Shown: in pieces, positions 1 through 24,417 of the stretch
Numbering within the stretch: the stretch's first letter is position 1
How the letters are laid out: each line of letters begins with the position of its first letter
Notes under the pieces: generated by a model
What the model saw: the letters and a program-made list of their open reading frames with translations, nothing else
Told to the model about the DNA's origin: nothing
Databases searched by the model: none
Program-made: the position numbers and the translations under genes
Assembly: GCF_019649055.1 (NCBI RefSeq)
Contig: NW_026570265.1
Coordinates: 682,001-746,000 of the forward strand
Reading direction: 5' to 3'
Origin: Paramacrobiotus metropolitanus
Lineage: Eukaryota; Tardigrada; Eutardigrada; Parachela; Macrobiotidae
Length of the DNA: 64,000 nucleotides

Positions 1-2750
1 AGGAAGCTAGCTAAAGGAGTACGTAAATCAGCAACACAGATTTGCGAGCGGCTTATCACTAAATGCGATACGAAGGTATGGAAACGATCCACGAGCGAAG
101 TCAAAGTATGAATGAACTGTGGAAGAGTGCCCTAGTATCCTTTTTTATAGCATACATGCACACTTGGAGAAACCACTGCAAGAGCTGAAAGGGTTCAACA
201 CAGGAAACAATAAGAAATCCAACCTCCAAAATTCCAGCAAATTACCAATTGTGGAGCCGCAGAGCCATAACCGTTAACACAGCGAGCGCTTACCAGGAAT
301 GAGCTGGGTGGGACGTCCTTATCGGTGCAGGGAATATGGCTCTATATTGCTTGCTGCGTACGAGGCAGCCAAAGAAGCGGATCCCGTGCGCCGGACTTAC
401 ATTGTAAGTTGTACAGCGTGTTTCCATGTCGCTTATCAATTTATCCCAGCCGTAAATTAAACCCCACATGACTAGCTAGGAACAGATGGACCACCGCTAT
501 TCAATGCCACCATTGCCCTTGCTGACGTAATACTGTGCACGTTTTAGCGTTAGGGCATTCTTTCTGTGCAACGGATAGTTAAATCCTTTTCCGAATGTAT
601 TTGAATTGCATGAATTAAATGAGCCCCCGGTTTGATAAAGTGTATCAATTTTCACAATTACAGCGATGCATCCGCCGGCTCGGCAGCAGGGATCAACTAA
701 TCAAAGCTGATAAGTTGTTAGCGACGTTGGGGTTTTCCGTATTATCAAATTCTGATTCAGTGCGCTTTTAATTCAGTGCTTTTACAAGTGTTTCCCGCTC
801 GTTGTTGTGTTTTTGTTATATACAGTAATACAATTTTATTTAGAACATATTTACTGAACACAAAAAATCGAAAACGCGACAATGTTTATCGCAATCGTGA
901 TATATGGATAACGATATCAAAGTTAACTGCAAAAAGTATGAACAACTGCATTAAACGCTTAATTAAGTGTGCCGGCCTCCGTATGGAAGTGTAGTCTTAC
1001 TCACATACTGTATAGAAGTATGCGTTTTATCTGAACGTTGGAATAAAACTACAATGCGATCTTTTGCAAATTTTGTTTTTGAATTAATCTTTTGCATTGA
1101 TAGTTTACTAATGGCACTTAGTGCAGCACTAACGTAGTGTTTCCGTGCCAATAATGAACTACACCAAATCTTCGAAAGTTTACAGTGGAAGCAAGTTTTC
1201 TCCTGAACAAAATTCTACTTGATTCTGAGAAATGGTCTCTAGCTTAAAAACTTTATTTTGCTGCTTGTGATATGGGCCAGTGGTCAGATCATAGCAGCTG
1301 TCATAATAATTAAAATTGTGTAAAGAGAAAACCGTAAAAAAATAGGACATGCCGTAACTGACGGTAAAAAAATATCTTAGCTGTATGAGTATCGTTTTGG
1401 TAAAAAACCTGCAGCTTTGCTTATAGTGATGATTTAAAAGAGTTTTTCCGTGGTAATATAACGTGCAAGTGTACAACCACCCTTACAAGACAAGACTAAT
1501 TAAAAACTTTCATCTTCAATCTAAACCTCATTGTTACTGTAAAAGAGCTAATTTAAAAAGTTACCGTGGTAATTATTTTAAAGCTACAGCGTCTTTTTGT
1601 GAATAACTTCACTCCAGGAAATGCAAACAAATGAATTAAAATTGATTAAATATAGCCTAGTTATAGTAAAAGCTTCGGAGTTTCTTACGAAGATTGCTTT
1701 TGAAATGCAACTGTACATCTATAACGATAGGACCGATATAGTGACAACATTACTTTAAGTATTTTATGCCGTGGATATGAGAGCGCCATACAATGTCTTC
1801 TTTCTGATTCAAGTACAATATGATGTACTAGTGTTCGTATATAATATTATTAATTTCTCCATTAACAATAGTACAAGAACTTATCGGCTTGTCGCACAAA
1901 ATTCTAGTTAAATAGGCTACGTTGTCGTCATCGTTCATGATCAGTATGCGGCCAAATGCAATACATTTTTCCTCCGTTAGAGCTTTCAACTAAAAACGAA
2001 TTTATCGTTGAAATGCAGCCCGCGATGATAAAATTTAAAATCACGAGCTCAGCGGGTGGTTGTTTTCCAAAAACCTGCTGCAAGGAGAAAATTAGACATC
2101 TTCTAGCGTAACACCTGCAAAGGTCACGGATCAGGCTAACCACCCACCTTTCCCAGACCGTGCCCAGCATCAAATTTTCATCGTTACCAATTACTTTAAA
2201 AGCATTATCTATGAGAAGAACAATTCGGAGTCGTGGTATTTGTGAATGGAGCTCGAACATTCAACCATGCGTGATATTACAACAGCGCACCTTTATATTG
2301 TAAAGGCCCAGCAATTTTGAACGTATGATAGCATGTAAGACACCTTTCATTCAAACCTTTCTGCGTCATTCCTTATAATTAGCCGTGATCATCTTTCAGT
2401 AAAACTACCGCATTTAATATCTGCTTGTTTTTTCTGAGCTTATTAATATGATCAGTGCCAAGCCGGAAGGAAAACCTACTAAACAACATATGAATGAATA
2501 AACAAAATGATCATACTGCATCCCTGGAAAGTGTTCATGAAGACCAAATTCATTCAAAGCGACTAATTGCCCACTCGTGCATTGCTGATTGCTTGCTGTA
2601 ATTCGTACAGTAGTCGCCTACGTGCAATTGTAATACGTATTTTATCGTCTGTAGACTACCGTCATTCAACATGCTTACTTTTATGAGAATTTTTGTTATA
2701 CAACTTATATTTTGTCTATACAAATTAACTCGCCAATAAATTTTTGTTAC
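1..2750. other. Region without a supported gene
   Basis: I see no exon chain with family similarity here. The longest open stretch is a 110-codon minus-strand frame at 1928-2260. Its interior holds splice-like signals, but I could not join it to other exons in phase and recognise no domain, so it may be chance. The rest is AT-rich noncoding-looking DNA. Confidence 0.5.
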
Positions 2751-2803
2751 AGTCCGAAGCCTATACCTTTTCGATTGATTGAGGAACTATAGTCCTCCAT
2801 AAG

Positions 2804-2998
2804 ATGCCGGCAATACGTAAATCTTCCTCACATTCACGTGCACTAGCATCAGCACTGTTTATACTCCTTTTGTCCATGTATCCGGTTTATCCCAGTACGC
2901 GTACACAAGATACGAGTAATACGTACTCACCATTTCAGGCTGATCTGCCAGATCGGAACTTTGAACTACTGCAAATAATTAAGAGTTCTAAAATTTAG
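2804..2998 (+). CDS. Possible small secreted protein
   Basis: This 64-residue open frame starts at an ATG about 50 bases after a good splice acceptor (TTTTTGTTACAG, ending at 2752). That suggests a spliced 5' UTR. Residues 13-30 form a hydrophobic stretch like a signal peptide (ALASALFILLLSMYPVYP), leaving a predicted mature peptide of roughly 33 residues. An AATAAA-type signal lies near 3093. The C-terminal part (RNFELLQIIKSSKI) has no Gly amidation site, no dibasic cleavage site and no cysteines, so it is not a typical neuropeptide precursor. I do not recognise the protein. The acceptor, signal peptide and poly(A) signal together support a gene, but length alone does not. Confidence 0.35.
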   Translation: MPAIRKSSSHSRALASALFILLLSMYPVYPSTRTQDTSNTYSPFQADLPDRNFELLQIIKSSKI

Positions 2999-3099
2999 CC
3001 TCCTTTACTAAATCTAAAAACTGAGTGATGTGTGTTTTTACGTACACTTTCGATCGTCCAACTCCAACCCCGAAGGAAGTAAAACCAGCTTAAAATAAA

Positions 3100-3700
3100 T
3101 ACCGAACAATAATTTTGTGTATAGCAAAACGAAAACTACGACGCCTTGTGAATAATAAAGGGTGTGTTCTCCTGGTTAATAGTGCGCGAATATCAATAGC
3201 CTTTACAGCCCGGACTTATTATACAATGCGTTTCCCAGCAAAGCCCCGCAGCATTCCTGTTTGTGTGTGACGTACACCGCATCTGACCGTGGTTCATGTA
3301 ACAAAAACGGACGAAAACAGATGAGAATCGTACCGGAAACCGACAGACAATTATGCTTATCGGTCCGCTCGCCTAACAGCAGATGAAGGCTTGTCAAAAG
3401 AATTTTCAACACTCGTTAAAATGAGGATTATAACTAAGTCCCTTTACAATGAACTGCTTCCAGAATAAAACAACATTATAATACTGGTGCTCTTAAATGA
3501 TTATCAGAATTCCAAAGAACCGTCTATGGCGAAAACAGTGTCCCAATGCCCGGTTTCTTGAAAATGTCACTTCACATACGTTGTATAACCGCATTCGAGA
3601 CAAACAGTTAAGCCATTATCATGTCTGCTATACAAAAAAAGTGGAACATTACTCGTTAGATGAATATTTTTACTGGTTTTCAATAAAAGACGTTTCTGAT
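3100..3700. other. Intergenic, nothing recognised
   Basis: I see no coding exon here. A TTTATT at 3709-3714 reads AATAAA on the minus strand and is the likely poly(A) signal of the MIF gene upstream of it. Confidence 0.5.
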
Positions 3701-3918
3701 CTTCTTCATTTATTCAACTTACAATAAGTTCTTAAATTTAATGACCAAAATTATACTAAACGAAAATTTCTAAACTCCGAATTCGTAGAATAATTTGCAT
3801 GGTTAGAAACGGCAACACAGAGTATAAAACACAAACGTAATTATTTTCAGATGTAATACGAAATAGTTTGAATTAGGGCGTTCACAGGCGCATTGAACCG
3901 AGCTGCGGGAACGACGCT

Positions 3919-4808
3919 TTATCGGAAGATGGCAGCAAAAGTTTTCCCTTCGTGACCGATTTCAGATGCCGGTTGATCATGGTACGAAACATAAAATCTG
4001 AAATATAAAAGAAAATAAGCGAAAACAGATCAAACAATTACAATCCTTAAACCAGCACCAATCCTTGCACTCATGGCACTACGACAACCGGTTATGGAAT
4101 CATTCGGGTACATAACTGCGTTTTAACATGCGCTTATAAAGCATAGAGATCAAGATCAACAACGTACAGTTTGAAAATGCTTAAAATAAATATGAACTTG
4201 CAACCTTGCAACTGCCAACGTAAGCGTGACCAGCAAAACCTACTACTTTGGAGAACTGTGTAGTGAACGGAGAAAATGCAAACATGCACAACAACAACAA
4301 AAATTAGCAAACAATTTTTCTTAGAGGCCCTGTGTTGTTCAATCTTTGTTGCTGATTCCAACCTAGCAAACTTCTGCAGTTGACCGCAAGCATTTTCACT
4401 ATAAAGTGTATAGGAAGTTACCGCTTAATAAAAACGGCAAATTAAAGCGCAGACATATTACCTATCACCAGGAATGCCCAGTTTCTTCTCGATAAAGTCA
4501 AAGATGGCTTTGGAATGTCCTTCATTTTTGTCCCCTCCGATGGCGCCGATTGAGACCAACACGGCATATCCACACGGATCAGTGGTTCCCGCAAACGACA
4601 TGATCTGATCCGGTACGACATGGATGCACAAATACTGCAACACACCATACGTATGTCAGCTGACACACAATTCGAATTCAAATTAATTTTGAGTCCCTAC
4701 CTTCACCGGTTTTCCAAGGATCTTGGCCAGCAGATCCGTCAATTCCTGGCAGAAGTTGGCCGGAATCTTGGCCTTGGGCAGATTTGTGTTCAGCTGGAAA
4801 GTTGGCAT
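3919..4808 (-). CDS. MIF: Macrophage migration inhibitory factor homologue
   Basis: Three exons (4701-4808, 4462-4634, 3919-3997) join in phase to give 119 residues; the mammalian protein has 115 counting Met. MIF is a small homotrimeric cytokine-like protein with keto-enol tautomerase activity. The start gives Met-Pro, and that Pro becomes the catalytic N-terminus. The lysine of the GKP motif and the Tyr of the DRFYVS segment are present. The signature HVVPDQIMSFAG matches the family closely. Two family residues differ. The CxxC redox motif is reduced to CGYA, so thiol oxidoreductase activity is unlikely. The active-site Asn two residues after the Tyr is Ser. The gene is divergent from WASHC1. 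Poly(A) is probably at 3709-3714. Confidence 0.95.
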
Positions 4809-5465
4809 GGTGGATGTGTGGTCACGGAAGACTGCAAATTAGTAGAATGTCCGAAAACAGGAGACGATGCGTGGAATCTAGCAAAAGTTACAGAGCAAAT
4901 GCACACCTGGATTTCCTGTTTGCAGACTGCAACCTGATGATAACGGGGCGTCGGATGGATACGTGTTTGAATAAATAATAATCGGAAGAAAATCTCACTT
5001 GGTAGAAACAGCTGATTATGCTGACCGAGGCGAGCATAGTTAGCGGCAATACACCCCTATCACCATACAAACGACAAAAACCATACGAACGCTTATTAAT
5101 AAAACGAATATAAATTTTTTTAACTTTCCTGAATTCATTTATAAATTTGGTAGAAGTGATGAAATTCTTTTGCCACGGTTGTATATCATAGTCGCAAAAG
5201 AAAAAAACAACACAGGCTACACAGCGATACTTCCTTTATATGATTACTCGAATACTGCCTATGTCTTCAGCGCGCAACTCAACAGATGCTCGTTGCTTTC
5301 CAAATCTCATAGCTTCGTAATTAGGTAAACGTAAAATTGCAGCTGCCTAATTACAATACTTACCTTCATCTACATATCCATGTACTTTAGTTTTAGAGCA
5401 ACTCAGCTGCAACTGGTACTTAAATTTACATTTATGTGAGATAATCGACATCCGTTGATGCCTTG
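4809..5465. promoter_or_regulatory. Divergent promoter region of MIF and WASHC1
   Basis: These 657 bases separate two divergent start codons and must hold the 5' UTRs and promoters of both genes. I see no clear TATA box at a suitable distance from either, so the start sites cannot be placed. The assignment rests on position. Confidence 0.4.
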
Positions 5466-7400
5466 ATGGATATACAAGTGCCGCTGGTCAGCTCGAGTCT
5501 GCGACCCGAGGAAGCTTACGTTCAGCTTTTAGATTCTTTGCGATACTTGGAGCAGGTATCCGACGATGTATTCTCCAGGATTGAACGCAAGACCGCTGAG
5601 CAGCATCTCCGCTTACAGGTAAGAAACGTTTCTGCACTGTTACTTCTTTAAGCCACAATTTATGGATGCTCCTCCTGGCTCCAGGCCGTCAACAATCGAC
5701 TGGCTGCTGCTGAAGCGCAGATCAGCCACATCAAAGGCAGCAAGAAAGCCATTCGAGTGTTCGCCGCGCCGTCCTTTCCTGCCAGCGATCAACCTGCAAC
5801 GTATACTTCCATTTTCTCAGAAGAATCCCCAGCTCTAGCCGAGCCTCTGCGATCCAATACGGCCATACGCTCGAGATTTTCCCGTGACGTGAAGCCGCCG
5901 CAGAAGATTGAAATTCTTCCCTTGGTGGCTGCTTTGGATCCTGGCTTGCATTTTGACGAGCCACCGCGCGATGTCGGACTGGGCAAACTGCCTAATACCG
6001 TCAAAAGCGTCAGCAGTCTCTTGTTGTTCAACAGCGACCAGAATCCGTACAACCGACACATCGCCATAGATCCGCTGGGCGGAACAGGCAAGAGTCGTCG
6101 CCTGGCTGAACCCGAAGTGCAGACGCCGTCGCTTGACGCCGCTCCCGCCAGCTTCACACAGTTGGATGTAAATCAGACGAAGGACGATTTAAGTTACATC
6201 CCGGGATTTGGCGACGTACCGGAGTTTGTGTTGCCTAATATGCTACCGGATCTTCCAGGTGCTGAACACTTGAAAATGAGAAAATGCTACGCAATACAAA
6301 TATTAGTACCTTTTTTATCTCATTTTTTGATACTGGTAGCTGGAAGTATCGTACCTTGCTAATTTGTTTATGACATTCTTTTGCTTGAAATTGCACATTT
6401 CGACAATTTTGCATTTCACTGATGGTAAAACGCGAATTTGAATTTACGAGTTAATGTACCAAACGTAAGCTCCGGAAATGGTTTGAAAATCACGTAGAAA
6501 TCCACGACAAAGGAAAATCACTTATGAATTCCTGGTTATTACGTTGAGCTGTTTTTATAGGTGTTGTTGAAGACTTTGGATTTGGTGAGCTGAGCGACGA
6601 TTTCGGCGCCGCAATTCCTGCTATTGGAGCTTTTACCTTGGAAACTCCGGTACAAAAGACCGCTCCGGAATGGCCGAAAGTTGTTGCTGTTCCGGAAGCT
6701 CCACCCCGTGCGGTGGTTAGTGCTCTTCCGCCCATTCCCGGAGCCACACCTCCGCCTCCACCGCCCGCACCGGCGCCTGTAGCTGCGGGTCCTAAACCAC
6801 CGGCCCCACCACCACCTCCGCCTCCAACTGCGCCCGGTCCACCTCCGCCACCACCGCCAATGGCCGCTACATCGGATTCAGCGGCAGCGGGCGGCAATGT
6901 GCCAGTTATGAATGATGCTCGCAGTAGTTTGCTGGAAAGCATCCGTGCGGCGGGTGGAGCCGGTAAAGCCAAACTGAAGAGTGTCAAAGAGCGGAAGCTG
7001 GAGCAGAAAAAGAAGAAACAAGAGGAGAAAACAAAAGGTGGGGGAAAACCTAATGAAACGAATGGTTTTCATTGTTTCACCACTGTAGTTTTGTCTGGTA
7101 TCTAGCCTTTACGTTATTGCCAAATTACTGCTTGTAGCGATAATTGGTAAATGAATTAATTGCGCCATTGTAGCTGTTTCTGGAGGAGGCGATTTGATGG
7201 ATGACCTTAAAAGCCGTCTCACAAACTTGAGGAAGGGCATATCTGCCGGCAAGAAAGGCGGCGATGAAGAAAGCAGTTCATCACGACCCGCTAATTCTGG
7301 ATTCAATAATGCTGCTATGAATCGAGTGTCCGATTTGATTCCGCATTCCCCGACAGTACCCAGCAAACCTCATGAGGACAACGAAGAATGGAGTGATTAG
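5466..7400 (+). CDS. WASHC1: WASH complex subunit 1 (Arp2/3 activator)
   Basis: Four exons (5466-5618, 5685-6258, 6561-7037, 7174-7400) join in phase to 476 residues, close to the family's usual length of about 465. WASH1 is the nucleation-promoting subunit of the endosomal WASH complex and activates Arp2/3 to build actin patches for cargo sorting. The N-terminal part (to about residue 240) matches the WASH homology region, including LPDLPG. Residues about 280-345 are a proline-rich stretch. Residues about 359-385 form the WH2 actin-binding helix (SLLESIRAAGG then KAKLKSVKERK). The connector helix (MDDLKSRLTNLRKGIS) lies near 410-425. The protein ends in an acidic tail with the Arp2/3-binding Trp (NEEWSD). 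Poly(A) signal at 7640-7645. I chose the ATG at 5466 because it begins the conserved N-terminus. Confidence 0.95.
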
Positions 7401-7639
7401 TGAAACATTCTTGGACGTAGCATATTTTGATTGTGCCTGTGATTCGTTGAAGGTAATAGCCGATTTATTGAATTTTTCCAGTGGAAGTTTTAATTTTTTA
7501 CTGTTATGATGTAATTGCTGAGTGACTTGGTCATGTTCGTAATTTTCATGAATGATTAACGTTGTTAGTTATTTCCTGATATTGTTATCTGGAGTTAAAC
7601 ATGTTTTGTGTCCAGTTATTGACAGTGTAGCTAAATTAT

Positions 7640-7645
7640 AATAAA
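7640..7645 (+). terminator. Poly(A) signal of WASHC1
   Basis: An AATAAA hexamer lies 240 bases after the WASHC1 stop, in AT-rich 3' UTR-like sequence. Confidence 0.6.
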
Positions 7646-9841
7646 ATTTGTTAAATTACCGTGGAATTAATTTGGCATTGTATTTTGTTTCGCGATATAA
7701 TGCTTTTCTTTTTCGGTAAAGCAAAGTAAAGCTTCTCGGGTTGCAAAGTAGACTTCAATAGGGTTTATCCAGTAGCTCGTTTTTGCTGTATGATTTATTT
7801 CCGGCATGCATGCAGGTCGGATTTCTTATCCTTTCCGTTTTTGCAATGTGGATCATTTCAGCAACTGTAGCAACTGTAGAATGTTGTCATTAAACACTTT
7901 GTAAGTGCACTTCGCGCGATGCTGTGGCTCAGTCGGTTTTCCTTTCTGTTATTTTGGGTACTTATTTTATCGAAAGTCCTGTGAAATTACTGACAATTAG
8001 GCCTTCTTCTTCCGGCTTCCGGCATTTCTGAAACTTTGTGGTAGCATCATTTTATCCGATTTGCTACACCTTTGTTTTACAGCAGTTGTGTTTTGTTAGG
8101 CAAATATTTTTTGACACTTCTGGTATACTTGCCATAAATGCTACATAGCCCTCACAAGAGTCAAAAAGTTTCAGACTTGTATGTTATATAGATATTGTGG
8201 ATTTGTAAAGATATTTGTGGATTTTTTTCGTATTAGAAATGACAGCCTTTCTAATACGAAAATGCAACCAAGTACGAGTAACAGTGGAAAGTATAGAAAG
8301 AAGGCAGCATTGCGTGCCACATTAGTAATTATTATCTGTGGATAATGCTAGGGTAGATATTGTGCTATCGTGTGCTGTCGCCGCATGCAACGGGAACGGG
8401 AGAGACACTGTTTAACTGCGACGGACAAAGGCTGGTCGATGGTTGGTATATCGGGTCGTATATGTGTATTGTAAGTGTATGACTGTATACTTTCAGGTAA
8501 CCTGCCGCACAGTTAATCTCAAAGCGGATCGATCACCGGAAGACCATGCTTGTTGGAGCATCCCCGACCGGTGTAGCCGTGTAGCTGTGGAGTGGAAAGC
8601 AAACATGCGGTAACAGCGCCTGTTTGTTGGGAGGTATTTTCGGGAACGTTCACTCCAGCGCATAGACTGCATGTTCAACCAGCGTACGAATGCCGGTTCA
8701 GCGGATCCGCCGTGGCTGCGCTACCTGGCTGAATGACGTGATCATGAGTCGATATTCATATTTTGTCCATATTTGAAGGTCTAGTTCAGTTCAATACAGG
8801 ATACAGGAACGAGGAAAGTGCAATGCTGAAGGTCCACGAGAGTGGCGTAGGACTCGTTGCCATCATCTTCCACTTCAATTAGACGAGCTGCGTTATTGTC
8901 TGAGCATTGATTTTGAACAATAGGAATGGACACAGTGCAGGATAACGTACGCTATACCATAATCTACCGTGACAACGGATAATCTCCTGAAAGTTACTCC
9001 ACGTTGACGGACCAATTCCTTTATTGTTTCTTCTGTAACAGTAAGTGTGTTTAACAAAATAATCGTTACTGTCAAGGATCATACATAATAAGAGCAAATG
9101 TTTTGCGGTTTCGAAATTCGCTAAGGATCTACGATAACCAAGTAATCACTAAATAATGTACGAGTACTGTATTTATAACGCCGAAATCGTATTGGGAATG
9201 CAATTCCACTTTGTAGTTTGTACAGATAATGCGCATTACGATTTATTTCACATTTTAATTGTAAGAATTTGGATGACTAATTAGGGGACTGTACAAAAGA
9301 TATTTTCAAAGACGATACTATTGTATTCTAAATTTCTAATCATGAACAACAGCTCCAGACCCAAACTCAAGCGGCTGTTGTAAAGAAACAGCTGTATTGC
9401 GGCGTTAGGATTTAAAAAAATACTAAAATAAACTATCAAAAGCCGTTGTTTTAAACAAAATTAATTGCTAGATTTAGCCACGGGTATGACAAAACCGGAA
9501 AGGTATGAAAAAAATCTTCGTCCTTTGTCGCGTTACTAAAATGTCAGCAGTAACATGCCGACAGCAGGATATATTGATTGTAGCTGGAAATGATAATAGG
9601 TATATGCAGTATCGAAGCTGCCCTCATAGATATACAATTGCGTTTCCGTTCATTATTCTGACCCTGCAAAGTGAGAATTTTCTTGTTAGATCATATATGA
9701 GACCGTATTTCATCGTCGGGATGGTTGTTGCACAATTTTGTTAGCGGAACGCGGGAGTTAATAAGAAGACTCGAATTAAGCGCTTCAGTTTGATTTCCTC
9801 GTTTTCACACTTTTCTGATTTCAGCTGTCGATTAGCGTGCC
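7646..9841. other. Long intergenic region upstream of the first channel gene
   Basis: Apart from the coding-like fragment at 8354-8736, listed separately, I see no exon supported by similarity and splice signals. Promoter and 5' UTR sequences for the channel at 9842 are expected at its right end. Confidence 0.4.
8354..8736 (+). pseudogene. Coding-like fragment with in-frame stops
   Basis: This GC-richer island sits in AT-rich DNA. From 8497 to 8736 one frame is open except for a TAA at 8611. Its translation looks like an extracellular cysteine-rich exon (TCRTVNLKADR, ACWSIPDRCSR, RIDCMFNQR). A TTTCAG acceptor lies directly before it at 8491-8496. Upstream, 8354-8470 also reads as a Cys/Trp-containing frame ending at a GTAAGT donor, but the intervening 26 bases are too short for an ordinary intron. 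The pattern fits a decayed gene or exons split by features I cannot resolve. No family is recognised. Confidence 0.3.
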
Positions 9842-12800
9842 ATGACTGGAGCACCGGCTGCCGTTGGCCCAACGCTGGAAGTGAAGGATCCTTATAAAAT
9901 CGGACCTTTCAAGTAGGTGTCTGTTTGGCTTGGTCATAAACGGCATTGATCTATTTGTATGGATTGTGTGTTCTTAGATTCAATCCACAATGGGTGCAGA
10001 AACCATATTCGGACAGCTACTTTAAATGGCTCATCGTCATATCCTGCGCCGTGTGGTACAACCTGATATTGACCCTTCCACGTGCCGTGTTCCACGAGAT
10101 ACACGAAGGCAATCAGTTGTACTTCTTCCTTTTCGTCGATTATCTCTGTGATTTGTTGTATCTGGTGGATATGGGAATAAAGACTATTACAGGCACGTCG
10201 ATTATAAGTGTTAGCATTTACTGTTTAATATTGCATTAACAGTGCACCTGCAAGAAAGAAACATTTTCGTCTTGCTTTAAGATAGTAATTAATGTCTTGT
10301 GTATGTTACTGTATTATTATATACACTTGCTTAATTGCAATCTTTGCCGTTTGTAGGTTATTTCGAAAACGGTATACTTATAAAAGAACCACGGAAGCTG
10401 ATGGCCGCGTATAAGAAGTCCAGCACTTTCATCTGGGATATAATCAGTATACTGCCGACGGATTTGTTTTATTTTTTAACTGGCTGGTACGCGCCATACC
10501 CCATACTGCGGATTAACAGAATCTTCCGCTTGGGTCGCACGCATGATTTCTATTATCGCGCACAGACGCGTTTGGATTCTCCCAATACGTTTCGCCTCAT
10601 ATATTTGGTAGGTCCTTTTTGCAGGCTTTGAAATAAGCTTACAACATGCGGCGTATGATTCAATCGTGGATCGTCTTGTCACTTGTCACGTATTTCGTCG
10701 AATGTGCTATGATCATCAAATTGTCATATTGCAGATTCTGACGATGATCGTCGTTGTGCATCTGAACGCCTGTGTGTACTACTGGGTCAGCTCACAAGTC
10801 GGCATCGGTTCCGACCGGTGGGCGTATCCCGGCCGGGCCGGTTGGCGTTATGCGGAGCACGGTGGTGGTCACGGCGGTGGACACGGCGCGGCTCATGGCG
10901 GACACGAAGGCAACGCCACAGAAGACCTTTCCTTGGACCATAACGAACTGGCGCACGATCTGGGTTTCGCTCACGGAGTGGAGAACGGAACGGACTCTGG
11001 CCATCTGAACGGCAGTCTCAGTCACGCATTCCCTCTCGAGCTCGACCACTTGGATGCCGTTCATCACCGAGAATGAAACATTAGCGCGGCCGGTGATGAT
11101 CACTCACACTCGGAACACGGCACGGAAACGCATGATAACAGCCACACAACAGAAGGATCGCATCTCCAGGACGATAGCGCAACTGTTCCCCCCGATAAGT
11201 CCGCATTGCATCATGACGATAGCGAAGTTCTGCCGGCTGATCACAAGCAGTCCAAGTTGAAATATCTCATCGCTGATTCACCGAAGAGTATCGCGGCCGA
11301 ATCACCATGACTTTCCTTCAATGTCAACCGTGCCGCACCTGGTGTCTCATGCTGAGCGGATGCGACGACAAGTTGTTCTGGCGCATAAGGAAACCGATAT
11401 CGATTTTCCCGGATCACTCAACAGTTCAACAACGGCGCACGTCTCGGTGACGATTCGCGGAGGCAGTGAGCTGGGACATGTCGATTTATCGGTTACGGGA
11501 TTCGCCGGCGGTCCGACCAAGATGAATGTGGAGCGGTCAACCGCCCGCGTGGCTAGTGCCGGTCTGACGTCAACGGACCGTCCGACAACTGGCCAATCAG
11601 CGCGCACGACGATCATCGCGGCGAGCGTGCGGTTGGCTAGCTCGTTTCCTGATTTGCCGGGTTTCCCGAATCATCATTCGACGGATTCGTTTGCCAACAG
11701 TGTTAGTCGTACGATGAAACGAAGCTTACCGGAAAGTACGGTCACGCATACACCTGCCAGAACAACAACGAGCAAACTGCATTTGTCGTTGGACAACGCC
11801 CATGCGGCACAGGAATCGACCTGACGCCGCAGGTCACGGAAAATCCATTAAAAGCTCTTGAACGGCGGATGCAGGAGGAATTTGATCAGAGTACTACAAT
11901 TCTACCACAAACTACTGCACCTACTACCGGTACCACCAATGGAAACGTGCAACATGAAACGAATCACAATCCCAAGAGCGATACCTCGCACCAAACGGCC
12001 AATGGGGAATCACATGCCGATGGGAAAACAACTGACACTGAAAGTGCCAGTCGCACACAAGAACATACAGGCTCACCAGCGGAAAACCATGAGAGTGTCA
12101 GCGGAGCCGGTGGGCACGCTGCGCAGGGACAATCGGCATCGGGGAATGCCGGCGGTGTCGATGAAAATCCCCGTGAGTTGAACATGTTGGCTGCGTCATG
12201 CGGATAGAGCGTTCTGAATAGAACGTAATTGAATGTTTATTTGCGTGTTAATGGTTTGAAAGATTGGGACTCCTCTCACGCACTTCTGCATATTTTAGTT
12301 ATTATTTAATTCATGTTCGAAATGCCAGTTAATATGATTGACACATAGTGGAACTCGTGTGCGTGGTTTTCCAGTGATATCGTTCTTGATTTTTGCAGCT
12401 AATGCACACGGAACAAGTCATGGAACGGCAGGAACGCCACAATCTCCACAATCGCGGTCTGATGATTCCCAGAACCAGCATTCAGGTAAATATATGAACA
12501 CATAAAGATATGACCCTTTTGGTCAGTCCCGGTGCAGCGATCAGCAAAATCACACAGTTACAATAATCTTCCTGCGGTTAATAGTACCAGTGATTTTCCA
12601 GTTGGAATCAGCTAGTATTTATGGGATGTATTTCTTTCTTTAATCGCATACAGTAATTAACGAGTAAAACTGCTGTGGAGTTACTGAAACGCGTGCAGCG
12701 GTGGAGTTACTGAAACGTTTGCCATATTAATTATCCGAATTTTATTTTATAGAGGGTCAAGCGTCCGAAACCCATGGATCGTTTGCGGACACGGGAAACT

Positions 12801-15026
12801 CTTCAGGTTGGTGGCGAAAAATTACAACAGATAACCGCTGCTCAGTGCTCACTAGTCACAAAAAACAAATAGACCCTTTTTGCAACTGCTCCGCTTGTGC
12901 CGTTGTTGACCTTTCTATATGGAGTACTGCTGCTGTACACACCCTGTGCAGCTTGTTGTGTGTATATGGTTTTTTGGAAATATTTACGTTGATTAGCAGC
13001 AAGTCTTTTTTTTGGAGTTGCACTTAATAGAAATCATAGCAGCTTAAAAAGCGCTTGATTTTGAAGGCTTTTTATTTTTTTAAGCCTAGTTTACTCCACT
13101 TACCACTTTCGAACAATGCAGGTGATCATGGAAATACACATACAGAAGACACTACTGGTCACGGTGAATCGAGCGCCCATGCACAACCAGGAGCGCACGA
13201 TAACGGATCCGGTCCAACCGAAGGCAGCGGTCACGGAGAGTCAGGGACACATGGTAGGGCCGATCATGCCGCTGGGGATCACGCAGAAGCGAGTGGGCAT
13301 GGTCAGTCAGATACTCATGGCGGAGGAGGCCATGGCGACAGCGCAAACAACGCACATAGCGAGGGAAGCGGCCATGGAGAAACGACGGGGCATGAAACTG
13401 GTGGACATGGTGCTAGTGCTCATGGTGAAGGAAGCGGTCACGCATCCGATAGCCATGGCGCAACCGGCGGTCATGGCGAAGCAGATCATGGAACAGGAGC
13501 TGAACATGGTAGTGCCGAACACGGCAGTACCGGGCACGGAGAAGCTGGCGGACATGGTGGAGGAGGGCATGGAGAAGGAGGTCACGGGGCCGGTAGTGGG
13601 CATGGGGCGGAAGGTGGGCATGGAGGTGGAGAAGGAGGCGGAGAGGGAGAGGGAGGGGGCCATCACAAGCCGATCGTGATTAGCGACAAATTTCTCAACG
13701 ATACGCTGCTGCAGAAATACTCGTACTGTCTCTACTGGTCGGTAAAAATGATGACATCGAAACCGTACGAATTGGCCAACCCCACCACCACCAACGAATT
13801 CCTCTTTCATATCTTTGACGCTTTCTTGGGAATATTTATGTTCGCTAGTATTGTCAGCGAGGTCGACGGGATTATTGAACGCATCAACAAGGCTTCCGAC
13901 GACTTTAAGGAAAAACTGGATTCCGTGAAGCAATATATTAGTATGCGCAAGGTAATTACTACGTTAAACGTTGCTTACCATCAGTTAGTAAAGAAGCGAT
14001 GGACATATGTGAGTTAAGCTGTTTATTAAATTGGTTATGCGTTTAACTAGGAAGTAGTGTCGTGAGGGTAAATATGAGAACTTGGGAGCGTACATAAGCA
14101 GAACTATAATGTTATGCGTTATTATTTAAAGGTGGGACGTGAAATGGAAAGTCGCGTGGTGAAATGGTTTGATTATGTTTGGGCCAATAACGGATCACTG
14201 GACGAAGATTCCGTTCTGGCGGTATTACCGGCGTATCTCAGGATGGAAATCGCTCGCTTCGTCCATCTGGACGTCCTGAAAAAAGTGCCTATATTCCAAG
14301 GAATTGATGAGCAGTTTTTGCTGGAACTGGCCGAGAAGTTGCGCTTTGAGGTGAGCCTCTCAAACATTAGTACACTGTGGCATGGGCCATTTCTGATCGA
14401 TTATTGCCTTATCAATTATTTTTCAGGCATTCTGTCCGGGGGATTACGTGTGCCGGAAAGGTGACATTGGCCGGGAAATCTATGTGGTACGGCGTGGTCT
14501 GCTGAATGTGATTGCTGCGGATGGAGTGAAGGTGATTGTGACGCTGAAGAGCGGTGTGGTCTTTGGCGAATTAAGCCTCCTCAACGTCCCTGGCTCAGCT
14601 AACGGCAATCGGCGCACCGTCACGGTCCGGACCGTGGGCTACGCTGACCTGTTTAGTCTTTCCAAAGAAGCCTTCTGGACGTGTCTGGAAGAGTATCCCG
14701 ATGTTAAAGAACAGCTTATGGAGAAAGCTCGAAAGATCCTACAAAAGGACAATCTGTACAATGAAGAAGCGGCCCGGGAAGCTGCCCGCCGGGGGCGGAA
14801 TTTTGAGGAGGTAGCCGGTCGACTGGAAGAGAATCTGGACGTTATGTCACGGCGCTTAATGCGCTTCTGGCAGGAACAGATTGAGATTAATCAGTCGCTC
14901 CTCAGTAAACTGGAGCGATTAGAGACACTGCGACGACAGCAGCGGAAGAACCAGACTAAAGTGCGCGAAGTGGGCGATTTGTTGGACCTGTCGCAGGATA
15001 TAACCGGCGCTACGGTTGCGCCGTAA
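9842..15026 (+). CDS. CNG-type channel with giant His-rich turret (frame-disrupted)
   Basis: Nine exons: 9842-9912, 9978-10192, 10357-10607, 10735-12172, 12399-12485, 12753-12806, 13122-13951, 14132-14350, 14427-15026. In order these encode S1-S4 of a cyclic-nucleotide-gated channel (S4: ILRINRIFRLGR), S5 (ILTMIVVVHLNAC), the extracellular turret, pore and S6 (KYSYCLYWS, FLGIFMFASIV), C-linker (VVKWFDYVW) and the cyclic-nucleotide-binding domain (FGELSLLN and the phosphate-contacting RRT). A C-terminal coiled coil follows. The turret is about 670 residues, against roughly 20 in known CNG channels, and is full of HG[EG]-type repeats. The usual TIGE filter is replaced by TSKPYE. Exon 4 has an in-frame TGA at 11074 and a shifted frame between about 11308 and 11820. 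Its overall length still keeps phase. Intron 2 has a GC donor. This is either a pseudogene, a gene with assembly errors, or one with unrecognised splicing. Confidence 0.8.
10860..13670 (+). repeat. His-Gly-Glu-rich coding repeat (channel turret)
   Basis: The coding sequence for the S5-pore loop is a degenerate short-period repeat of His-Gly, Gly-Gly-His and Gly-His-Gly-Glu units, spread over four exons joined by phase-1 introns. In the last exon (13122 to about 13670) I count about 31 histidines in about 186 residues. The first exon adds GGGHGGGHG and similar runs, then a longer Ser/Thr-rich part. Confidence 0.75.
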
Positions 15027-17079: not shown

Positions 17080-20000
17080 ATGGCAGAAGAATCTGACGTT
17101 AACAATATCCCTGCAAATGAAGATGCTCGATCTGAAAATCCTCAGGCCCTACATGATCATCATCATCAGTCGTTTTTCGGCGTCGCGCTTGTTGTCAGGC
17201 TTCTTGTGCTGGTAAATAATAATGACATTTAATTTTACGTAATTATTAGCGCTCTTTATCCCAATCGCTAACTTTGCCTAGCGTGGACAAAACTGGACGC
17301 GCTTATTAGTCATGTTAAACTGCTAATACGAATAGTTCATATAATTTCAAAACAAAATTTTATACTAAATATGTTTTCTACTTTTCTTGAATCTTAATTC
17401 TTGCCCGCGAGTCTGCTGCTTCGGGAAGGAGGTCGAGAAATGCTTGTAGCGCACAAATGCAGGAGAGATACGTAGGTGAATTTTTACCTATGGGCCTATG
17501 GCTAAGTGATGTAGCGGGAAAACCAGGTTAAGAGCGAAATAGATACTGTTCACTGGCGGCACCACTGTACAAGAAACGGAAAATTATAATTTTTAACTAA
17601 ATATATTTTTACGTTGTTGTCTTAGTTTGGGCTTTTTTAAAGCATTGTAGAAGCAAAATTTATTGGTCACCTTGCAGGCTGCTCGCCGACGACGGAATAG
17701 GAAGGTGCGACCGGACTTGGACCCTGACGCTGTTACGGTTGATCCCGTGGCCGAGCCAGTTCAGTTTCACGAGCAACTTCCTGAAGCTGACCCTTACGCA
17801 TTACGATGGGGATTAAGGTGATCCGTATATATAACTTTGCTCTAATGACGCAAATATTCATTTTGCATCGATATAATCACATCTACGCAGATAATTGCGC
17901 ATTATAAAATGCTACTGACGATTACCGCCAGTGGCTCTGTACATTGCTCCATTGTAGAACAGCCAACTCGTAATCAAATTCAATTATCACCTGCCAGTGT
18001 ATTTAGTTAACAAGTGTTTCATGTAGGTTTAATCCTAAATGGGTGTTAAAACCGTGGTGGCGATCTTATTTTTTCTGGCTGATGATTGTATCGGGCGCGG
18101 TGATGTACAATCTGCTCATAATATTTCCCCGTGCGGTTTTTGAACAAATGGAGAATTACAATACATACCGGATAACCTGGATTGTCCTGGACTATTTCTG
18201 TGATGCACTTTATCTTTGTGATACGGTCATCAAATTTTTGACAGGTAGAAGGATAATACATCTGTGTTTTAAACTTTTAATGATATCATGCCACTTTGCA
18301 TCGGTTTATTTCTGCCCCACATCAGCAGTTCACTTAAACATATATCGAGTTCATCATAAATGTTTACCGACTCTTAAGTAACTGGGCAGCTGCGGTAAAG
18401 TCAACATTAATTTTATTTCATAAACTATTGTACACCTTCATGCTTCACCATAATTTATGTCAGCCATTCGGTTGAATTAAATTTTGCTCAGAATTATCTT
18501 CGCTCCTGCTCTTTTTCTGGTTTATAATAATCCACCGCGCACACATATCTTCGCTTAATCCGCGTTTACGAGCTTTCGTATTTTATTTCGTAATAGATTT
18601 AAAGTTGACTGTACGTTACGGTAGCAAAATGAATTAATTTTGATGAGAATGAAATAACTTTTGTTTATATAAAATAACAGCTCCACTAATGATTATGCAG
18701 AGTGTAGAAGTTTTTGCACTTAATTTTTCTAGTGTAAGCAATTGAGTAAGGACTATACGTTGGTAAGCTGTGTCTGAGTAGAACACATTGGTGAAATTCG
18801 TAGAACACGTCGACATGATATGGTGTCTTAAATAAAATATACATACGCTACCGTTTCCTTACAGGCTACCTCGAGAACGGCATAATCGTCCGAGAACCTC
18901 GCCGGCTATGGGTGAAATACCGGTCTAGTCGAGATTTTAAGTTGGATTTAATCAGCATACTACCAACTGATTTCGTTTTCATCTACACCGGCGAGCGTGT
19001 CCCATGGGTAATTCTTCGTGTGAACCGTCTCTTCCGGCTACCTCGCCTCGCTGAATTTATTTATCGAGCCGAGACGAGATCTGATTATCCAATATTCCTG
19101 CGGATATCCGTTCTTGTAAGCAGTGCGATCTGGACAGATGTCGACGTCAATGCTCGTTATATGAGCGCTGAATTATAAAAAATTTTCCTTTCTTCACAGA
19201 TAGGGTCCCTTTTAGTCATCACGCACATTAATGCATGTCTCTACTATTACGTCAGCTGTCAACTTGACCTCGACCAAAGAGATGGCTGGAAATATCCAGG
19301 TATGTGTACGAACAACAAAGTGCTCAATTTTAAACAACTATACGTATAATTGTCAATCGTAACTCTGTAAGCATGATTAACGAGTATGCGCTATAATTAT
19401 GATACTGTTAAGTTTAATTATCATGCAATAAGATTTATTTGAAAAACAATTGCGCACACGGCAAAGTATCTGTACATGTAGTTTGCCGGATCAGATGTCA
19501 GTTACAGTATAATAGAATATTTGTTTTCAAAAAGTAGTTCGTTCCAGAGTCTATCACACTGTCTGCTCTTACCGTAGTTTAAAATAAGTACTTATATTTT
19601 CATTGCGTTTTGATGTAGCAGTGTCAGTTTTTTAAATGAGACGTTATAAGGAGTTCTCTAACCGAAAGCACTTCCTTTTAGGCACGGCGAGATGGAACGA
19701 CACCCTATCCCACTACGACGACACGCTACAGCAGAAATACATCTTTAGTTTTTACTGGTCAGCGATGCTGTTAACGTCCATTTTACCCAATATGAATAAC
19801 CCGCGCACTACGGCCGAAATTTTCTTTCACTGCATGGAGATCTTTGCCGGCATGTTGATTTTTGCCACCATCGTGGCCCGAATCGGTGGGGAAATAGCTA
19901 ATATCAGCCGGAAACGCGACATCTTCCGGCGGAAAGGCGAAGGTGTCAAGGCTTACATGAAAGTTCACCGGGTATGTGCTCAGGCGATTGTGCGAAATTT

Positions 20001-21338
20001 TATGACGTACAACCTGTGATCCGACATTTTATTTTGACTGCAGGAAGTTGGGGAAGATCTGGAGACACGAGTTGTTAAATGGTTCGATTACATCTGGTCG
20101 ACGAAGCAGGATTTAGATGAGGAATCCGTCCTGACGCTGCTGCCCACCAAACTCAAAGCAGAGATTGCCCGTTTTGTGCATTTTGAAGTACTAAAACAAG
20201 TACGGCTATTTCATGACGTGGAGGACCAGTTTCTGGAAGAGCTGGTGCTGAAATTAAAATTCGAGGTAAACGGATGTATGTATTGCATACCGGTGACGTC
20301 GAATACGTCGTTCTTGCACAAGTCTACAATAGCAACGGCGTAAATCAATACTGCAATATTAATTCTGTATAGCCCTTCAGTCCCGGCGACTACATCTGTC
20401 GGAAAGGCGATATTGGAAGTAAGTGAAAGAGTAAACGACAAGTATCATCCCTAACCGGTGCAAAGTGAACAGCTTTCAAGCTTTCTATAACAAGTTGACC
20501 TTAGTAATCATAATCAATGCGCCAATTTCAAAATACATTTAACAAAATAAGTACGGTGCATGATTAAATGTTTTCTGCAAACTGTTGAATTTTTTCTTGT
20601 AAGTACTTAATTTCGATTTCGGTGGTGGCTTCTTTGGTCATGAAATAATACATCTACAATTCTACACGTCAAATTGTGTCGCGCAAGATACCATTACCTT
20701 TTAGCAAATTAAAATAGGTATTATAATTAAAAAAATAAGAAAGCGTCTTAACAAGTATAATTGAACAACCTCTTTGTGCAGGACAAATGTACGTTGTTCG
20801 ACGTGGAAAACTGAGCGTTGTGTCAGATGACGGTACGAAAGTCTTCGCCACACTGGCCGCCGGAACAGTTTTCGGTGAATTAAGCATTTTAAATATTCCG
20901 GGAAGTAAAAACGGCAATCGCCGCACCGCTAACGTCCGCGCTGTGGGCTATGCTGACCTATTCAGTCTGTCAAAGGAAGATCTATGGGATGCGCTCAAAG
21001 AATATCCCCAAGTTCGGGACAACCTCCTGCACAAGGCCAGCACAATACTGCATCGTGACGGACTGATTGACGACAGTGTTGCCGAACAGGCCCGCCGGCA
21101 GGAGCGCGATTGGCCCGCTGTCACTGAGACCATTGAAAAAGGCCTGGAAAATCTCAACCTCCACATGCACAAATTTCTTAACGATTACTTCGAAGCTATT
21201 AGCAATTTGAACAAGGAACTATCCGAGCTGGAATCTCGTAATCACGGCATGTTGCACCGCAGTCATAAAAGTCATTCAAGCGAGCGGGGGATCGGCGCCG
21301 ATTACGTTCAGCCGGCGATATTTTTGCGGATGACTTAG
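17080..21338 (+). CDS. CNG-type cyclic-nucleotide-gated channel, tandem paralogue
   Basis: Nine exons (17080-17211, 17678-17817, 18027-18244, 18865-19115, 19200-19299, 19682-19971, 20044-20265, 20373-20418, 20782-21338) join in phase to 651 residues, a normal CNG subunit length. Six transmembrane segments are recognisable, with S4 ILRVNRLFRLPR, S5 with THINACLYYYVS, and S6 MLIFATIVARIGG. The C-linker (VVKWFDYIW) and the nucleotide-binding domain (FGELSILNIPGS, GNRRTANVR) match the family strongly. The coiled-coil tail follows. The pore loop reads LLTSILPNMNNPRTTAE, without the TIGE-type filter, as in the neighbour. The turret is short. It shares exon borders with the upstream gene (for example an identical 251-nt exon), so the pair arose by tandem duplication. 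The start ATG at 17080 opens the only exon that joins in phase to 17678. Confidence 0.92.
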
Positions 21339-21684: not shown

Positions 21685-24271
21685 TCAGATTTCCATCTTC
21701 GGCGGTGGTCGTTGCTTCACTCCACCTCCGAAAACTGTCCGCTGATAGAACGGAACTGTGCTCGCTTCCGTTTTCCAGTAAGACTTTTCGTCTCTTAGAA
21801 GATATGGCCGCAAATTCACATCCGTTGCCTTGCTCGGAGATTTCAAGTACTGCCGCAAAAAATTTTTCAGAACATCATCATTAAATTCTACCACTTTGTC
21901 GTCTTCCAAGCGCTCAAACAGTTTAATTGGCTTGCTTATCCAGCACAGGTTCCGATGAGGATTGAACTGATCCTCGTGCCAAACTGCAATGGTGTTCGCT
22001 TGGTATGTGCCAAAAATCCAATCACGCCCATTAGTACAGATGGACTGCGTAGTTATTGGATAAGTCAGTTCATTCAAATAGGAGAAACCTAATAAAAATC
22101 CAAAACAGTACAGCAGTTTGCAAACTTGACGGATAACATTTATGACTGTACTACAGTAACAACCAAAAATAAAACGAAACAATACTCATGAAAAGTAGTA
22201 TTTACCACCCAAAGTCAGATAAAAGTAAAACCAAGAGCTGGCTCACGGTTTAACCATACTCGACAACGGGACCAAGTAAATGACCAAAGAGCAAAAAAAA
22301 GCTATTCGTAAAGCATATTTAAATGGTTGAAGGAAATCACTTACCCAAATATAGCGCCTGTGCCATTACCCGTCCAAATGAACCGATAATCAGGTTGGCC
22401 TTCATGTTCTGCAAACCTTCCTCCTCGCCATACTTCTCCACTATTTGCTGCCAGGATCCGGGGATCTTCACGCTTAGTGTACTAAATTCACACGGATCTC
22501 CAGGCCAAAATCCTGAAAACCATCTCTTGTCAGCAACTTTGATACATCTACGGTGATCTACCTAATATTACCCAGAGTAGTTTAATTCACAACTGTCAAA
22601 AAGAAAGGTTTTGAAGTAATCGCTAAACCTGAAAATGGACCAGCTCTTACGATTCCTTAATGTAATCCATCACCGCTACGACAATGAGGGGAAACAGAGG
22701 TGAACACACCGGCGACTTTTAAAACAGCTCAGTCATAATATGTACATCCAGCTCACCAGGAATCCATTTGGGATAATGCATGTCTTCTTCCACGATCTCA
22801 AAGCCATACGCGCCAGGATGATAGGTTTCCATTGCACCGGAGAATTCTGGCTCTTCGCACGGATAAAAATCTATATTGACCGGCGTTCCGATAGTCAGCG
22901 ACGACTCGCGCGGCACCACCTGTAACAACATCCAGTCAGCTTTTATACAACCTTTGAAGTCTTCCGTATTTGGAAACGACACTGGAAAGTCTGGAATACT
23001 GCATGCGGAGCGGGTTAGAAGAGGAATTCTCTTCCCCTCAAGAATATCCTATTCTACTGAAAATTATTACAGTATCAATTCTGCCAAGTCTAGGAGCTGT
23101 ACGATAAGCACCAGAACCGATTAGGAATCCCAATAATAACATGACCGATTAAAAGTTTTAAAACTTACATACATCCAGCCCCAATTCAGGGACTGTTATC
23201 GGCCAAAGCCGCGATTTGTGAGGGTATGAAATGCGCTCACAAATTACAGTTATCATTAATTCCCTACCGCATTCTTACCGGAGGCAGTGGATTTTCATGG
23301 CGAAAATTTTTGAACAGCTTGTCAGATTCTTCGTACTGCACTCGCTGCTCTCCACTGACATAGCAGGCCGTCTTAAAACCCAAGTCCCCCTTCCACCTTT
23401 TCGTGTTGCGCTGGCTTGGATGTGTTTCTCTCGCTGCTTTCCTGTACTTCGGATAGTCCGGATATGGCATATCTTTATGCTTTTCAAACCCCGATCGTCT
23501 CCACATCGCTTCACACCGCGTATTCGTGTCCACCTGCAGCTCCGTCAGGTGCGGATAATCTCTAGCGCACACAATATCCACCGCACGCACCAGGGCTTCC
23601 ACCACATTCTGGGCCGAATTCAGTAGTCCCTGTTCTTCCTCGGGAATAAGAGTCAAATTCTTATTAAAAAACTTTTTCTGCATCAACAGCGCATCGATGA
23701 CAGGCAGGCGAATCTTCTCCACGATGGCATCCAGTGTGGCCGCATTAATATAATAATCCAGCGGCAGATCGTCGCCCACCACGGCCGTATGTGTCAGATG
23801 TTGGTAGAACGGAAGAATATCATACTTGAGCGAAAATCCCGGAATCATCCATGGCTGCCAAAACGCTTTGTAGCGGTCGTTTAGCCGCTGACGTCTTTTC
23901 AAGATAAGAGGATCAGGAGCGTAAGTGAGCGATCGGATTTTGTCATGAACACCAGGTTCAGCGGCAATCTTCGCGCCTTCCAACCGCCTTTGGTACCGAA
24001 TGCCATCGGGAGTGTTAAGTGGCTGAATGATCTCTGGATATTGAGGTTCTTCAGTCCAGTCATCCGGATTGTGGTACAGCGATTTGCTTACTTTGGCATA
24101 GATATCGCGCGTGTAGTCTTGGGGGCTGTAATGCAGAGTTTTACTGGTCCGTTTCGTGCCGTGGCGTACTGGAACGTGATGGACAGCTATGGGACTGACC
24201 ACACTAACACGATCCCGGAGTCCGCAAGTCCCCGACGAATACAGCGATGATACAGACCGAAGCAGACGCAT
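21685..24271 (-). CDS. MRPS30: Mitochondrial ribosomal protein mL65 (MRPS30/PDCD9)
   Basis: Five exons (23279-24271, 23169-23235, 22757-22990, 22345-22512, 21685-22088) join in phase to 621 residues. The protein is a metazoan-specific component of the mitochondrial large ribosomal subunit. The C-terminal third is diagnostic. It holds a FWPGDPCEF segment, then an FGRVMAQALYLG helix, then NPHRNLCWIS, and EFNDDVLKNFLRQ aligns with the VKGFNDDVL region of the vertebrate protein. The first 20-25 residues (MRLLRSVSSLYSSGT) are Arg/Ser-rich without acids, as expected of a mitochondrial presequence. It is longer than the vertebrate protein (about 440), the excess lying in the first, intronless 331-codon exon. 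It is convergent with the second channel gene. Confidence 0.9.
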
Positions 24272-24417
24272 GACTTCTCAAATTCAGGACTTATCGTTAG
24301 AACTTAGAACTGCAGCATGTCAAGTGGCTGGTCCAATACCCAGTGGCTTAAATTTACCACGACACTTCTCTTCCGTTACAGTTTCCGAGGTAAATCTAAG
24401 TAAGTAAACTGGAACTT

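Follow-up and report, generated by a model that had tools for sequence, protein, structure and literature searches.

Does the CNGA-like channel gene at 9842-15026 of the window (the 64,000-nucleotide stretch of Paramacrobiotus metropolitanus DNA analysed here) carry a long histidine-rich turret between S5 and its pore, and is that turret intact? An earlier note on this DNA described an insertion of about 670 residues at this site. Its downstream third is convincingly coding, and the upstream part is interrupted in the assembly.

Identity and layout of the channel gene

The locus contains two tandem channel genes, of which gene 1 is the subject here. Its features are as follows; splice-site scores throughout reflect a general consensus, not one trained on P. 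metropolitanus.

9842-15026, + strand: gene 1, CNGA-like channel
9842..9912, +: exon 1, inferred start codon and N-terminus (ORF, splice sites)
9978..10192, +: exon 2, S1-S2 region (homology, splice sites)
10357..10607, +: exon 3, S3-S4 region (Ion_trans match under the Pfam cut-off; CNGA1 alignment)
10735..10848, +: start of exon 4, S5, then the conserved YPG-xxx-WR that opens the turret (homology, paralogue alignment)
10849..12172, +: remainder of exon 4, turret coding sequence that is a relic, is skipped or is wrongly assembled (shuffle test, splice-site scans)
10910..10911, +: candidate GC donor, AAG|GCAACG, phase 1, which could remove the broken stretch (splice-site scan)
11074..11076, +: in-frame TGA that breaks the turret (frame reading)
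11261..11308, +: interval of a change from frame 1 to frame 2 (frame-2 stop 11258, frame-1 stop 11308)
11707..11824, +: interval of a change from frame 2 to frame 1 (frame-1 stop 11704, frame-2 stop 11822)
12399..12485, +: turret exon E, phase 1-1, 29 codons (splice sites, frame)
12753..12806, +: turret exon F, phase 1-1, 18 codons (splice sites, frame)
13122..13951, +: exon G, Gly/His-rich stretch, pore helix, altered filter and S6 in a single open frame
14132..14350, +: C-linker and beginning of the cyclic-nucleotide-binding domain (homology)
14427..15026, +: last exon, cyclic-nucleotide-binding domain (PF00027), CLZ leucine zipper (PF16526) and stop codon (Pfam)
17670..21338, +: gene 2, tandem CNGA-like neighbour (approximate limits, first exon unsettled)

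The claim of a CNG-type channel gene is borne out. The best phmmer match of the gene 1 core is solved CNGA1 (E 8.9e-133, query 32-557), and both PF00027 (56.7 bits, cut-off 27.5) and PF16526 (40.4 bits, cut-off 26.7) exceed their Pfam cut-offs. Pfam Ion_trans is also matched, yet below its cut-off on single exons. Gene 1 shares the six-helix core, C-linker, cyclic-nucleotide-binding domain and CLZ zipper with the CNGA1/CNGA3 chains 9zpv and 8ev8 (E about 1e-132 to 1e-129). It is one of many CNGA-type paralogues in this genome, which yields six CLZ matches plus the locus L008. Exon 2 appears to be followed by a GC-AG intron, whose GC donor at 10193 (CAG|GCACGT) preserves the frame into exon 3.

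The pore itself departs from CNGA1, with TSKPYE in gene 1 aligning to the TTIGE filter. A T-x-x-G(E) selectivity filter is a defining feature of conducting alpha subunits. In the alignment, T-x-x-G is absent from gene 1, gene 2 and L008 and present in L009-L012 and both CNGB-like genes. Gene 1 is therefore named CNGA-like, not a conducting CNGA channel; the altered filter makes conduction uncertain, and on its filter sequence the subunit may be non-conducting.

The insertion begins after the conserved Trp-Arg. In gene 2, a phase-1 intron (donor 19300) falls at YP|G, and the earlier note placed the insertion at that intron and read it as growth of the turret at the neighbour's exon border. Gene 1 instead reads through the intron site and keeps WR, while the W of gene 2 lies past its intron (a by-eye reading), so that growth exactly at this border is unsupported. 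The turret measures 14-47 residues in four paralogues (L008-L011).

The intact Gly/His-rich stretch

Exon G holds a Gly/His stretch of 182 residues (181 codons at 13124-13666 plus a split Gly), the pore helix and S6, all in one open frame. As had been claimed, an insertion rich in His and Gly thus separates S5 from the pore helix, in frame with the pore. The stretch lies directly before KPIVISD and contains 31 His in its 181 codons, in agreement with the count of about 31 first given for the final part of the insertion. Exons E and F add 47 residues upstream, giving an intact turret part of 229 residues with 35 His, 32 acidic residues, 2 Lys/Arg and no Cys. The introns within the insertion had been described as phase 1 throughout and splitting Gly codons; all three in the present gene model are indeed phase 1, but a Gly codon is split only by the last, the first two giving Pro and Glu.

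There is convincing evidence that exon G's Gly/His stretch encodes protein. None of its 181 codons has T at the second position (P 2.6e-13), and periodicity across 13124-13666 is strong (chi2 p 8.2e-35). Histidines are regularly spaced, with 24 of 30 gaps equal to 5 or 6 residues, more than in any of 10000 random placements (mean 4.5 such gaps, maximum 13). Across 28 His-anchored repeats, the codon after His shows identities of 0.86/0.58/0.28 at positions 1/2/3 against a background of 0.44/0.35/0.27, and the residue after His is Gly in 20 of the 28. At the second and third codons away from the repeated His, every position sits near background, so constraint is evident mainly for His and its neighbours. 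Because third positions are at background while His spacing and adjacent residues are kept, lasting selection on the peptide is suggested.

The turret is probably a long, disordered, low-complexity chain. A single-sequence AlphaFold2 model gives nearly all of residues 1-184 a pLDDT below 50, without secondary structure. Its 229 intact residues have a computed charge of about -27 at pH 7.4, -6 at pH 6 and +2 at pH 5.5.

DNA 10735-12400 matches only itself in the genome, as do the proteins of 13124-13669 and 11312-11821, in a search that skips simple repeats and common words and so carries little weight. With the same reservation about skipped repeats, an origin as a mobile element or duplicated exon is rejected, as no second copy turned up in the genome. 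Prokaryote and viral collections return 597 and 32 pattern stretches, none related to the insertion. Among solved structures the Gly/His stretch has no match at E up to 1, and in Pfam 10735-11073, 11261-11821 and 11833-12204 have none at E up to 0.1. A full-text search of one literature collection with a single wording found no paper on a histidine-rich turret in cyclic nucleotide-gated channels.

The broken upstream stretch and its explanations

The figure of about 670 residues is not supported as the assembly stands: 229 are intact, but the first 440 or so (10849-12172) contain one stop and two frame changes, which the earlier note missed. To arrive at 668 (75+77+171+116+229), one must disregard the stop and translate every segment in a frame of its own. 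Nor is 10735-12172 an open exon, as once supposed; frame 1 has nine in-frame stops, the first of them the TGA at 11074. The stretch is nonetheless strongly coding-like, in frame 1 (10849-11073), frame 1 (11077-11298), frame 2 (11311-11800) and frame 1 (11824-12171), and the observed score of each of these segments, A-D, is reached by 0 of 1000 shuffles. At 11309-11821, frame 2 alone is open throughout. This coding signal in frames 1, 1, 2, 1 marks 10849-12172 as a real or former exon. The break may be an assembly error or particular to this allele, or the exon may have decayed and perhaps be removed by splicing.

Residual frame shifts are present elsewhere in the assembly, where conserved genes show about 5 per 82 kb. 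That reference comprises 59.6 kb of HSP70, 13.1 kb of CCT, 8.1 kb of CNG paralogues and 1.7 kb of gene 1; its HSP70 part scores 69 of 130 first-look candidates, some of which may be pseudogenes, and contributes four frame shifts, one of them (a 20-nt gap) ambiguous, with a further 40-nt gap per family taken as an intron. The rate predicts 0.08 frame shifts in 1.32 kb, with a probability of 0.003 for two or more, so that ordinary assembly error is by itself a poor fit, unless such errors are commoner in low-complexity DNA. We think skipping or true loss a little less probable than an assembly error or an atypical allele.

Splicing around the damage was scanned against accepted sites, 14 donors scoring 1.3-5.9 and eight acceptors scoring 1.1 to 7.2. 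Skipping of the whole insertion, from about 10850 to about 13670, is the outcome that the earlier note had set against its own proposal; it is rejected for want of a usable acceptor, the best AG in 13141-13680 scoring -1.5. A single GT-donor intron rescuing exon 4 gives 142 solutions, of which the best (summed score -2.4) removes 1230 nt and the one with the longest protein removes 648 nt from a donor scoring -8.8. GT or GC donors before 11074 give 246 solutions, the best joining 10910 to 12070 (score 2.4, 1161 nt removed); this intron is not adopted; its acceptor, at -1.1, lies under the accepted range.

A shorter turret, of about 200-265 residues, would result if exon 4 ended soon after YPG/WR and spliced to 12399 or 13122, leaving the rest to 12172 as a decayed exon within an intron. 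This is unlikely on balance, yet it accounts for all three disruptions falling in 10849-12172. The GC donor at 10910 scores 3.5, inside the accepted donor range, on a scale that does not mark GC donors down for being rare; a second GC donor, at 10193, also seems to be in use in gene 1. Since 10910 scores within that range, the skipping reading gains, and both the favoured reading and a null gene lose. Open frames (817, 810, 770 and 763 codons) also arise when a GT donor at 10862 or 10841 is paired with the acceptor of 12399 or 13122, with 194-248 turret residues between WAYPG and NDTLLQKY across the four models; these two donors, 10841 at -1.3 and 10862 at -1.6, score lower than any of the 14 accepted ones, and 10841 would delete the conserved Trp-Arg. 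The removed stretch, moreover, is still coding-like.

That the gene or allele is null, with translation ending at 11074 after S5 and about 75 turret residues, seems improbable. With a nonsense codon and two frame changes, the 1.32 kb stretch does exceed the measured frame-shift background, but the remaining 2441 nt of gene 1 coding exons carry 0 disruptions where 5.5 are expected at equal density (P(0) 0.004), and the CNBD and CLZ are intact. The insertion might also be translated yet without functional consequence, its Gly/His repeats having expanded and been tolerated in a possibly non-conducting subunit. This is doubtful taken by itself, and it overlaps the other readings, so its chances are not exclusive of theirs. 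Low complexity, the hint of disorder, the non-canonical filter and the absence of the insertion from the four measured paralogues are in keeping with neutrality; the spacing of His and the residues kept beside it, with third codon positions at background, speak against it.

The reading favoured here, held tentatively and at somewhat below an even chance, is that gene 1 encodes a divergent CNGA-like subunit in which growth of the S5-pore turret has produced a long chain, probably disordered, that would act as a pH- or metal-responsive brush, with at least 229 residues intact and about 440 upstream codons that were or are turret, their frame broken in the assembly.

A possible titratable brush at the pore

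If gene 1 is expressed and forms a tetramer, four turret chains would form an anionic brush above the pore mouth. Acid would titrate the charge of this brush towards neutrality, and Zn or Cu might bridge its regularly spaced histidines. In addition to gating by cyclic nucleotides, either event could alter pore access or how concentrated cations are locally. Metal binding, pH sensing and any extracellular effect are predictions, that of metal binding drawn from composition (35 His in 229 residues). The boldest version is a long shot: four disordered Gly/His chains, each up to about 670 residues long and with a His spacing of 5-6 residues near the pore, would serve as an electrostatic gate, titrated by pH and metal, over a non-canonical filter.

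Known systems offer partial parallels. About 11 residues separate YP from RKY in the CNGA1 chain, whereas the gene 1 turret has at least 194 in every open model. The Gly/His-rich, zinc-binding Nereis jaw protein Nvjp-1 and the His-rich region of histidine-rich glycoprotein are likewise repetitive and His-dense, with possible Zn binding in the turret as the point of comparison; neither is part of a channel, and the likeness is one of composition only. ZIP/ZnT zinc transporters have His-rich loops, and gene 1 resembles them as a membrane protein with a His-dense loop, but they belong to another protein family and their loop does not adjoin an ion-channel pore.

What such subunits conduct, if anything, is a question that the altered filter of three paralogues raises as well. 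The other CNG channels in this comparison have a short turret. Should the loop be translated, gene 1 would be a natural experiment in which the pore mouth carries a long polymer, disordered and titratable, with electrostatic and metal-buffering effects open to simple deletion tests. Were the brush gate real, it would make a channel whose pore access is set by an intrinsically disordered external brush, not a folded domain, and that is perhaps tied to ion and pH changes while the animal dries.

A partly intact His/Gly-rich turret in a CNGA-like gene

The CNGA-like channel gene with the turret insertion (gene 1) lies in the window G000:C45:682001-746000 and has nine exons between 9842 and 15026. 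Its core, compared without the insertion, best matches CNGA1 (E 8.9e-133), followed by CNGA3 and other cyclic-nucleotide-gated channels, and its CNBD and CLZ domains both score above Pfam cut-offs.

Exons of gene 1
9842-9912, +, exon 1
9978-10192, +, exon 2
10357-10607, +, exon 3
10735-12172, +, exon 4 (long, broken turret exon)
12399-12485, +, exon 5 (87 nt, phase 1-1)
12753-12806, +, exon 6 (54 nt, phase 1-1)
13122-13951, +, exon 7 (turret end, pore helix, filter, S6)
14132-14350, +, exon 8
14427-15026, +, exon 9

Intron 10193-10356 is apparently GC-AG (donor CAG/GCACGT) and keeps the frame. A tandem CNGA-like neighbour, gene 2, lies at ~17.6-21.3 kb. The pair is flanked upstream by a WASH complex subunit gene (5652-7400; PF11945 match 5652-6362, with 6548-7400 attributed by eye) and downstream by a mitochondrial ribosomal protein S30 gene (PF07147, minus strand, 21685-24277).

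Exon 7 reads in a single frame through a split Gly and 181 codons (31 His, 64 Gly), then KPIVISD, pore helix, filter and S6. With exons 5 and 6, the intact part of the turret spans 229 residues, of which 35 are His and 71 Gly; Cys is absent. Codon-position composition of 13124-13666 is extreme (chi2 p 8.2e-35), and none of its 181 codons has T at position 2 (P 2.6e-13); the same codon-position test gives p > 0.2 in all seven control introns. His is followed by Gly in 20 of 28 repeats anchored on His. Over all 28, identity at codon positions 1, 2 and 3 is 0.86, 0.58 and 0.28 after His and 0.75, 0.40 and 0.25 before it, against a background of 0.44, 0.35 and 0.27. Codons two or three places away are near background. 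Thus, the peptide pattern round the turret histidines is retained while the underlying DNA repeats are old. Codon composition and these identities suggest that the intact part of the turret is translated. Tandem Repeats Finder reported no array in 13124-13666. His-to-His gaps measure five or six residues in 24 of 30 cases, while 10000 random placements average 4.5 and never exceed 13. Single-sequence AlphaFold2 prediction of exon 7, made without an alignment, hints at a disordered turret, with nearly all of residues 1-184 at pLDDT <50 and neither helix nor strand predicted until residue 188.

The interrupted exon

Frame 1 of exon 4 contains nine stops, from TGA 11074 to TAG 11704. Open stretches run in frame 1 to 11073 and over 11077-11307, in frame 2 over 11261-11821, and in frame 1 from 11707. 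If the stop is disregarded and every segment is translated in its respective frame, the total comes to 75+77+171+116+229 = 668 residues, 74 of them His, a sum that is probably the source of the ~670-residue turret claimed in the earlier note. Scored by codon usage trained on the downstream turret exons and gene 1 core, segments 10849-11073, 11077-11298, 11311-11800 and 11824-12171 (frames 1, 1, 2, 1) each reach values found in 0 of 1000 dinucleotide shuffles; two of three control introns are ordinary, with the observed value reached by 563 and 368 of 1000 shuffles, and the third is reached by 29. GC content is 0.52-0.61 in these segments and 0.31-0.39 in seven introns.

It is quite possible, if short of probable, that the turret exon is truly open in the animal. 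Indel-type assembly errors seem to exist in this assembly. The genome searched comprises 169.8 Mb in 533 contigs; the assembly report for Paramacrobiotus sp. TYO gives 170,483,395 bp in 684 scaffolds from Nanopore R9.4 with Illumina polishing (PMC8277472). In the CNGB-like gene L007, the nucleotide-binding domain is shifted in frame by one base relative to the intact tandem copy, L006; the shift, at ~1175-1180 of L007 on the reverse strand (G000:C26, ~194.5 kb), is either an assembly error or a recent pseudogene. HSP70 matches covering 59.6 kb contain four adjacent pairs that change frame without room for an intron. These sites gauge residual indels (G000:C2:3564221, C72:211248, C6:858054 and C72:241698, the last ambiguous because of a 20-nt gap). 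CCT matches over 13.1 kb contain no such change. At ~5 frame shifts per 82 kb, 0.08 are expected in 1.32 kb (P of two or more 0.003), so assembly error would need to be concentrated in the low-complexity turret stretch. That gene 1 is instead null is improbable, since the disruption density seen predicts 5.5 disruptions in the other 2441 coding nt, where there are none (P 0.004). A decayed exon skipped by splicing is doubtful. Joining 10861 or 10840 to 12399 or 13122 does leave open frames of 817, 810, 770 and 763 codons, but the GT donors behind 10861 and 10840 score -1.6 and -1.3 on a generic splice consensus, under all 14 accepted donors of genes 1 and 2 (1.3-5.9), and donor 10841 deletes a conserved Trp. 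Upstream of TGA 11074 every GT donor scores <= -1.3; across 10830-12210 the top GT donors score 1.5 (12110) and 1.4 (12173, the donor used), and the top acceptor, at 11700, only matches the weakest of the accepted ones with 1.1. More favourable to skipping is a GC donor at 10910, in the same phase as the 10861 and 10840 joins and within the accepted range at 3.5, with the rarity of GC donors not penalised; spliced to 12399, it yields a turret of ~264 residues (248 + 16).

Insertion site, filter and possible function

In the CNG paralogues of this genome, YP(G/A/S) is followed three or four residues later by W-R and then a short turret. Between YPx and (N/D)D lie 15 residues in L008, 47 in L009, 19 in L010 and 14 in L011, a count that omits L012 (pattern not matched) and gene 2 (intron at the site). 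In gene 1 the insertion follows YPGRAGWRYAEH with no intron where gene 2 splits YP/G, a site also intronless in L008-L011, leaving unsupported the earlier proposal that the turret grew at the neighbour's exon border. The three introns inside the insertion are all phase 1, as claimed, but they interrupt one codon each for Pro, Glu and Gly rather than Gly throughout.

The intact 229 residues include 32 acidic and two Lys/Arg. With assumed pKa values, their computed charge is -27 at pH 7.4, -6 at pH 6 and +2 at pH 5.5, and that of all 668 residues is -55, -9 and +8, respectively. Composition and His spacing would be consistent with four turret chains forming an anionic brush round the pore; acid might neutralise this brush, as might Zn/Cu held by the His comb, altering cation access. 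A full-text search of one paper collection for cyclic nucleotide-gated, histidine-rich and turret together found no paper.

The altered filter of gene 1 counts against this mechanism. CNGA1 has TTIGE, whereas gene 1 has TSKPYE, gene 2 TSILPN and L008 TSIIPQ. These three lack the T-x-x-G motif, whose Gly is kept in L009-L012 and both CNGB-like genes, and their pore loops exceed those of the other aligned CNG sequences by one residue.

Non-canonical pore loops
13727-13790, gene 1
19754-19805, gene 2
~6040-6095, L008 (own coordinates)

The three also split from the other sequences with support 0.805 in a stitched, query-anchored alignment. A CNG survey credits tardigrades with nine CNGA-type genes, the highest number (PMC9803222), and a tardigrade genome paper mentions a CNG-3 that is up-regulated in an anhydrobiosis comparison, which seems to concern H. 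dujardini (PMC5531438). Gene 1, gene 2 and L008 possibly form a clade of non-canonical CNGA-like subunits, which may be non-conducting or differently selective.
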